Below are positions 33,504-34,381 of a stretch of 34,381 nucleotides of DNA, in pieces; within the stretch, counting starts at the first letter, position 1; each line of letters begins with the position of its first letter. The stretch lies in assembly GCA_011391595.1 (NCBI GenBank), contig JAABQG010000038.1, forward strand, positions 1-34,381, in the 5' to 3' direction. This DNA comes from Hydrogenophaga sp. GTDB taxonomy: Bacteria > Pseudomonadota > Gammaproteobacteria > Burkholderiales > Burkholderiaceae_C. Under the pieces are notes generated by a model. That model ran no database searches. It saw only the letters and a program-made list of their open reading frames with translations, and was not told the origin of the DNA. Position numbers and translations under genes: made by a program.

Positions 33504-34048
33504 ATGCCCGGCGAACCCCTGTCCAGCCTTTGGGCCCACCGCCAGTTCGTGCGCTTCTGGCTGGCGCGCATGGGCGGCATCACCGCCGGCCAGATGCTGA
33601 TGGTGGCCGTGGCCTGGCAGATCTACGACATCAGCTCCAGCTCCAGCGCCTGGGACCTGGGCCTGGTCGGGCTGTTTCAGTTCGTGCCCGCGCTGGTGAT
33701 GACCTTGCCCGCTGGCCACGTGGCTGACCGGCTGCGCCGGGGCCGCATCTTCGCCGCCTGCATGGCGGCGCAGGCCGCGGTGGCATTCTTGCTGGTGGCG
33801 GCCACGCAGGGCGGTCTTGCCTCGCGCGAGCTGATCTTTCGCGTGTCCGTGATGCTGGGCGTGGCGCGGCAGTCAACTTGATCTTCATTGGCGCGTCCAA
33901 CCAGCTGGGCGAATTCGAGTCCGGCGCCAACGCCGCGCCGTTCGGCCCGGTCGGATCGGTGGTGATGGGCTGCGTCGGCACGATGCTGATCGCAGCTCTG
34001 TGGCTGCGGCTGTTCCCGGCGCTGGCGCGTAGCGACCGGATGACGTGA
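33504..34048 (+). pseudogene. MFS transporter gene with large internal deletion
   Basis: The first part (33504 to about 33868) encodes the start of an MFS exporter of the EntS-like group, with HRQFVRFWLARMGG and the loop motif GHVADRLRRGR. The frame then stops at 33879-33881. About 10 bp before that stop, a different frame begins to encode the family C-terminus (NLIFIGASNQLGEFESG, then helix and FPALARSDR) and ends at 34046-34048. Roughly 270 residues, more than half of a usual MFS protein, are missing, together with a frame change. The junction is near GCGGCAG at about 33867. It is non-functional as an exporter. A small hairpin (CCCGG-TAG-CCGGG, 34068-34080) follows. Confidence 0.85.
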
Positions 34049-34140
34049 TACGCGATGCGCGGCTTTACCCGGTAGCCGGGCCTTTGGGGGCGAATGCGTC
34101 CTTCAGACTGGGTGCGGGCAGTCGGATTGCTCCGAAGCAG

Positions 34141-34208
34141 TCGTAACGTTTGACATGAGCGGCTCGCCGAACGAGAGTCCGCTCGATGGAAGGGGCAGAA
34201 CTTAGCGA
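34141..34208 (-). other. attC-like integron recombination site candidate
   Basis: Read on the minus strand, a 68-bp sequence folds as an attC site would. Outer boxes TCGCTAAGTT (34199-34208 complement) and AACGTTACGA (34141-34150 complement) pair with single bulged bases. An inner stem GAGCGG/CCGCTC is extended by CTCG/CGAG and carries a 3-nt bulge. The right half (CCGCTC, then ATGTC, then AAACGTTA) resembles attC ends of known cassettes. The site begins 4 bp past the stop of the 34213 frame, as cassette attC sites do. The R' core GTTACGA differs from the GTTRRRY consensus at one position. Confidence 0.5.
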
Positions 34209-34212
34209 ACCT

Positions 34213-34381
34213 CTACTTGCCCGTCCGCAATAGTTCGACAAAACCAGCCTGAGTGCGGCTGGACTGCTCTTTGACTGCATACCCTTCTTCATTGACTACA
34301 AGAACGCCGTTCTTGAATTTGAGAACCTCATAGTCAACGAAGCCCTCCTTTCCATCCGTATCTTCAGTCTCAGCAACTAAC
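34213..34381 (-). CDS. 3' end of an unknown open frame, possible gene cassette
   Basis: From base 34380 leftward a frame is open for 55 codons (its start lies outside the window) and ends in TAG at 34213-34215. Its product ends FVELLRTGK and includes GFVDYEVLKFKNGVL and VVNEEGYAVKEQ. The base composition is clearly lower in GC than the rest of the window, consistent with an acquired gene. I do not recognise the family. Its stop lies 4 bp from the attC-like site, the usual gene-cassette layout. Confidence 0.55.
   Translation of the reverse strand, partial: LVAETEDTDGKEGFVDYEVLKFKNGVLVVNEEGYAVKEQSSRTQAGFVELLRTGK

Follow-up and report, generated by a model that had tools for sequence, protein, structure and literature searches.

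Positions 34141-34200 of the analysed window, a stretch of 34,381 nt that makes up the entire contig C60 of a draft genome of Hydrogenophaga sp., are supported by their sequence as an integron attC site that closes a gene cassette at its 3′ end. The reading that we consider probable is that a single gene cassette was inserted here by an integron integrase and is now stranded, no integrase having been detected in the genome, with the R″ box of its attC site likely decayed. Stranding is likely because the attC site follows a gene tail in an assembly that has no detected integron integrase, and decay of R″ is likely because the window site has GCC where the AAC partner of the R′ GTT would be expected.

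An attC site beside a gene tail of low G+C content

The right-hand end of the window carries these features:
34141..34200, minus strand (cassette strand): attC site; aligned to all 65 positions of the model (1-65) with 61.5 bits, E 2.1e-14
34141..34147, minus strand: R′ box GTTACGA, core GTT intact in the alignment
34194..34200, minus strand: R″ box TTCTGCC, degenerate in the alignment, GCC in place of AAC
34202..34208, minus strand: TCGCTAA, the alternative outer box of the sequence-only reading, seen in the sequence and unpaired in the predicted folds
34213..34380, minus strand: 3′ end of the putative cassette gene, 55 codons and stop, an open frame cut by the contig end

The sequence-only reading had proposed a possible gene cassette at this place and a covariance search as a check. 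With a model that we derived from 16 related aligned sites, the window site being left out, that search was significant (61.5 bits, E 2.1e-14); the score is not fully independent, because the training sites were first found by their likeness to the window site and to a sister site on contig C86. The attC identity is further borne out by a covarying family and by matches to the same model beside integrases in 14 related genomes. Up to E 10 the site is the sole model match in the window. From 34200 down to 34141 the minus strand reads TTCTGCC-CCTTCCATCGAGCGGAC-loop-GCCGCTCATGTCAAAC-GTTACGA, and a two-half pattern, written from this site and its sister, gave one match in the window and none in 100 shuffles. 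An Rfam search of the window returned no match; attC is not known as an Rfam family.

Across the 16-site alignment, 87.3% of the cells are paired, compared with 78.2% in shuffles, and 31 cells are changed on both sides, compared with 11.0; none of 500 shuffles reached either observed value, and the slid controls favour the structure partly because the sister site and the consensus had served to draw it. The exact two-arm pattern was found on 8 contigs of the species genome collection, labelled Gallionella, Nitrospira, Rhodoferax, Gemmatimonadetes, Burkholderiaceae, Rhodanobacter, Betaproteobacteria and uncultured bacterium. An attC type of the form CCTTCCATCGAGCGG..CCGCTCATGTCAAAC is therefore common to contigs labelled as several phyla, and its occurrence across differently labelled genomes fits exchanged cassettes, as expected.

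The frame that precedes the site also bears out what had been claimed of it, namely a lower G+C content and an end 4 bp before a 68-bp sequence. Its stop codon TAG, at 34213-34215, lies 12 bp from the edge of the attC model at 34200 and 4 bp from the stretch 34141-34208. The last 169 bp of the window have 48.5% G+C against 65.0% for the whole, a level as low being reached in 10 of 3422 segments of 169 bp (step 10), one of which is the position of the gene tail itself. Only the 3′ end of the cassette is visible on C60, its 5′ end and any upstream boundary falling beyond the contig. The 55-residue tail matched nothing in Pfam or NCBIfam, and tblastn found no relatives on plasmids. A protein search, limited to entries roughly 30 to 96 residues long, gave no relative, and in 399 family and 398 phylum genomes (overlapping samples) the tail found only itself; in viral contigs, 36 pattern stretches were seen and none was confirmed. 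Orphan status is not proven by these searches, since a gene fragment is a weak query.

Boxes and predicted folds

R′ retains the GTT of the consensus GTTRRRY and its last four bases fit partly; the crossover point, which we take from established attC knowledge, is predicted to fall between G and TT. R″ departs from the consensus RYYYAAC. Among 70 aligned model matches, which include the 16 training sites, 63 retain the GTT of R′ and 62 the AAC of R″, the window site being one of the 8 without AAC.

What the sequence-only reading had said of the stem held in part. The inner stem with single bulged bases is present in the predicted folds, in which the L arms pair as in attC sites. The attC-like outer boxes did not hold: the aligned R″ misses its consensus, and the outer pair that had been proposed, TCGTAA at 34141 and TTAGCGA at 34202-34208, is present and partly complementary but unused by the predicted folds. 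The box at 34202-34208 is possibly a displaced R″. Folding, also suggested as a check, went against the claim as well. The window site folds in its inner arm only (-10.6 kcal/mol for the plus strand, -10.1 for the minus strand), and its energy does not surpass that of dinucleotide shuffles (z -1.3 and -0.7, and in a second computation -0.5 and -0.8). The fold of the sister site on C86 has -22.2 and z -6.3, and that of a third attC site, on C126, has z -2.9. With minus as the cassette strand, plus would be the bottom strand that recombines, and by analogy with studied sites the window attC would be a poor recombination substrate.

Sister sites, integrases and the proposed origin of the cassette

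The source assembly (3.37 Mb, 126 contigs, 93.8% complete) holds three attC-model matches in all, one on each of the contigs C60, C86 and C126; its first pass scored 84 or 150 candidates, and weak sites may be missed. The two other sites are:
C86:16088-16147 (L006 8089-8148), cassette strand of the preceding gene: sister attC site, 78.1 bits
C126:30362-30419 (L074 4363-4420), cassette strand of the preceding genes: third attC site, weaker, 34.9 bits

The C86 site has the boxes GCCCAAC ... GTTGAAC and shares 79% DNA similarity with the window site over about 90 bases; 33 bp before it, on the cassette strand, ends a frame for an HpcH/HpaI aldolase. A transposase-like frame was seen by eye upstream in this locus. 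The C126 site is preceded at 65 bp, again on the cassette strand, by the end of a pair of genes for a Phd antitoxin and a YoeB-like toxin (L074 4486-4988). Toxin-antitoxin genes such as Phd/YoeB are often found in chromosomal integron cassettes.

No protein of the source assembly scored above the cut-off of the integron integrase profile TIGR02249, an absence judged on a draft of 126 contigs. Of its two tyrosine recombinases, one is above the XerD cut-off and the second is nearest to XerC and under the XerC cut-off; neither the XerD-like nor the XerC-like protein passed the integrase profile. In 60 related genomes, by comparison, 28 have an integron integrase above the TIGR02249 cut-off, and the attC model gave 108 matches in 35 genomes. 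Twenty-four of these, from 14 genomes, share a contig with a listed integrase at a distance of no more than 30 kb, the limit being our choice and one of the 24 being a training site. All 24 point away from the integrase, which is divergent in every case. The other 84 are more than 30 kb away or on a contig without a listed integrase; one such match (G037:C59:175243), at 39 kb from an integrase, points the opposite way. From the 24 concordant cases it follows that an integrase of the window site would lie to the right, so the orientation argument made from the sequence is supported.

We favour, then, a stranded single cassette, which would have arisen as follows, as inferred from established integron biology. 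An integrase, not seen in the assembly, would have inserted a circular cassette here by recombining the folded bottom strand of its attC site with a GTT-containing site. The cassette gene reads leftwards into attC, which would place the integrase side past the right end of the contig, and R″ would have decayed after insertion.

A somewhat unlikely alternative follows the sequence-only reading: the window would end in the distal cassette of a complete integron, and the integrase and other cassettes on its right would have been lost or split off in assembly. The polarity fits, and contig ends are expected at cassettes; the right flank of the window lies beyond the end of its contig. Similar attC sites complicate assembly and inflate the counts of clusters without integrase, as stated in an analysis of draft genomes (PMC9024848). 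A genus-mate (G001), one of the 28 genomes with an integron integrase, carries its own on a contig of 3.1 kb (505 bits, cut-off 435), and the attC model gave no match in that genome. Against this reading, the assembly of the source genome shows no integrase and its two other attC sites each stand alone on a contig. A long array is unsupported by the assembly, because there is no integrase above cut-off and the only two other attC sites are on other contigs.

Quite improbable is the reading in which the frame is no cassette gene and an isolated attC-like site stands between two chromosomal genes. It draws on the fact that the last 55 codons alone are visible and have no relative; the low G+C content, the lack of relatives in the 399 family and 398 phylum genomes sampled and the stop codon at 12 bp from attC, as in cassettes, argue against it. 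A hairpin formed by chance, or a structured element unrelated to attC, to which the poor folding energy relative to shuffles, the degenerate R″ and the absence of an Rfam match might point, is rejected as extremely improbable given the covariance score of 61.5 bits and the conserved arms, common to sites of the same model that lie beside integrases.

Compared with known systems, the window site resembles chromosomal-integron attC sites in its intact R′ GTT, in the unpaired bases of its L arms, in its variable loop and in belonging to a model family whose members point away from the integrase; it differs from them in its degenerate R″ and unfolded outer arm. As an attC site without a detected integrase it is like the CALIN or single attC of IntegronFinder terms, and unlike a CALIN it is the only attC on C60, in a draft genome, below the default threshold of two given in PMC9024848. 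A single attC site with a putative orphan gene adds little beyond one more cassette.

A short repeat beside two of the sites

To the left of the attC site lies one further feature:
34090..34124, plus strand: copy of a short repeat, found by BLAST, 35 bases, 89%

The repeat is about 30 bp long, and its form on contig C45 is GAATGCCCGCTCCCAGTCTGAAGCAC. On the cassette strand R′ is followed by a copy of it after 17 bp in the window and after 19 bp on C86. A 22-base pattern of the repeat, with at most 3 mismatches allowed, occurs at 4 places in the source genome (C45:28374-28411, C86:16051, C55:40249 and C126:29) and at one in the genus-mate (G001:C140:3443); it was found in none of 22 other genomes, and neither did the reversed control give any match. 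Considering the model matches, the motif stands beside 2 of 70 and is absent within 120 bp after the other 68. Its background, 0.007 per 120 bp, makes this look more surprising than it is, because the motif was written after both sites and the C45 copy had been seen. A simple duplication of the window and C86 sites is unlikely, because loop and gene differ between the two.

These observations leave room for an unlikely scenario, in which off-target insertion put cassettes of this lineage at copies of the repeat, which would be specific to the genus and a natural secondary target of an integron integrase since lost. Off-target activity of IntI at GNT triplets has been published (PMC10127599 and PMC12901181). 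Like cassettes at secondary (attG-like) sites, the window cassette is single and apart from an integron; unlike them, it has no empty target that we could find, the left flank matching relatives in pieces only. A GAT, which could serve a secondary site, stands at roughly the corresponding position of the C45 copy, and this is weak evidence as the triplet is common. The idea that the repeat forms part of the attI site of the genus-mate was rejected, no match being found in L076 with up to 3 substitutions.

Two side observations concern these regions. A weak match to the repeat (21 bases, E 0.0165) was seen some 100 bp past the integron integrase gene of a relative (L101 1497-1520, G011:C7:3721-3741). 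Within the window, at 33504-34048, a transporter gene with an MFS_3-like start is interrupted, its two ends being in different frames; about 0.67 kb between the ends, present in four relatives, is missing.

Off-target cassette placement is known mainly from mobile integrons. If the association of the repeat with the attC sites holds, it would represent a natural case of cassette placement by an integrase outside integrons.
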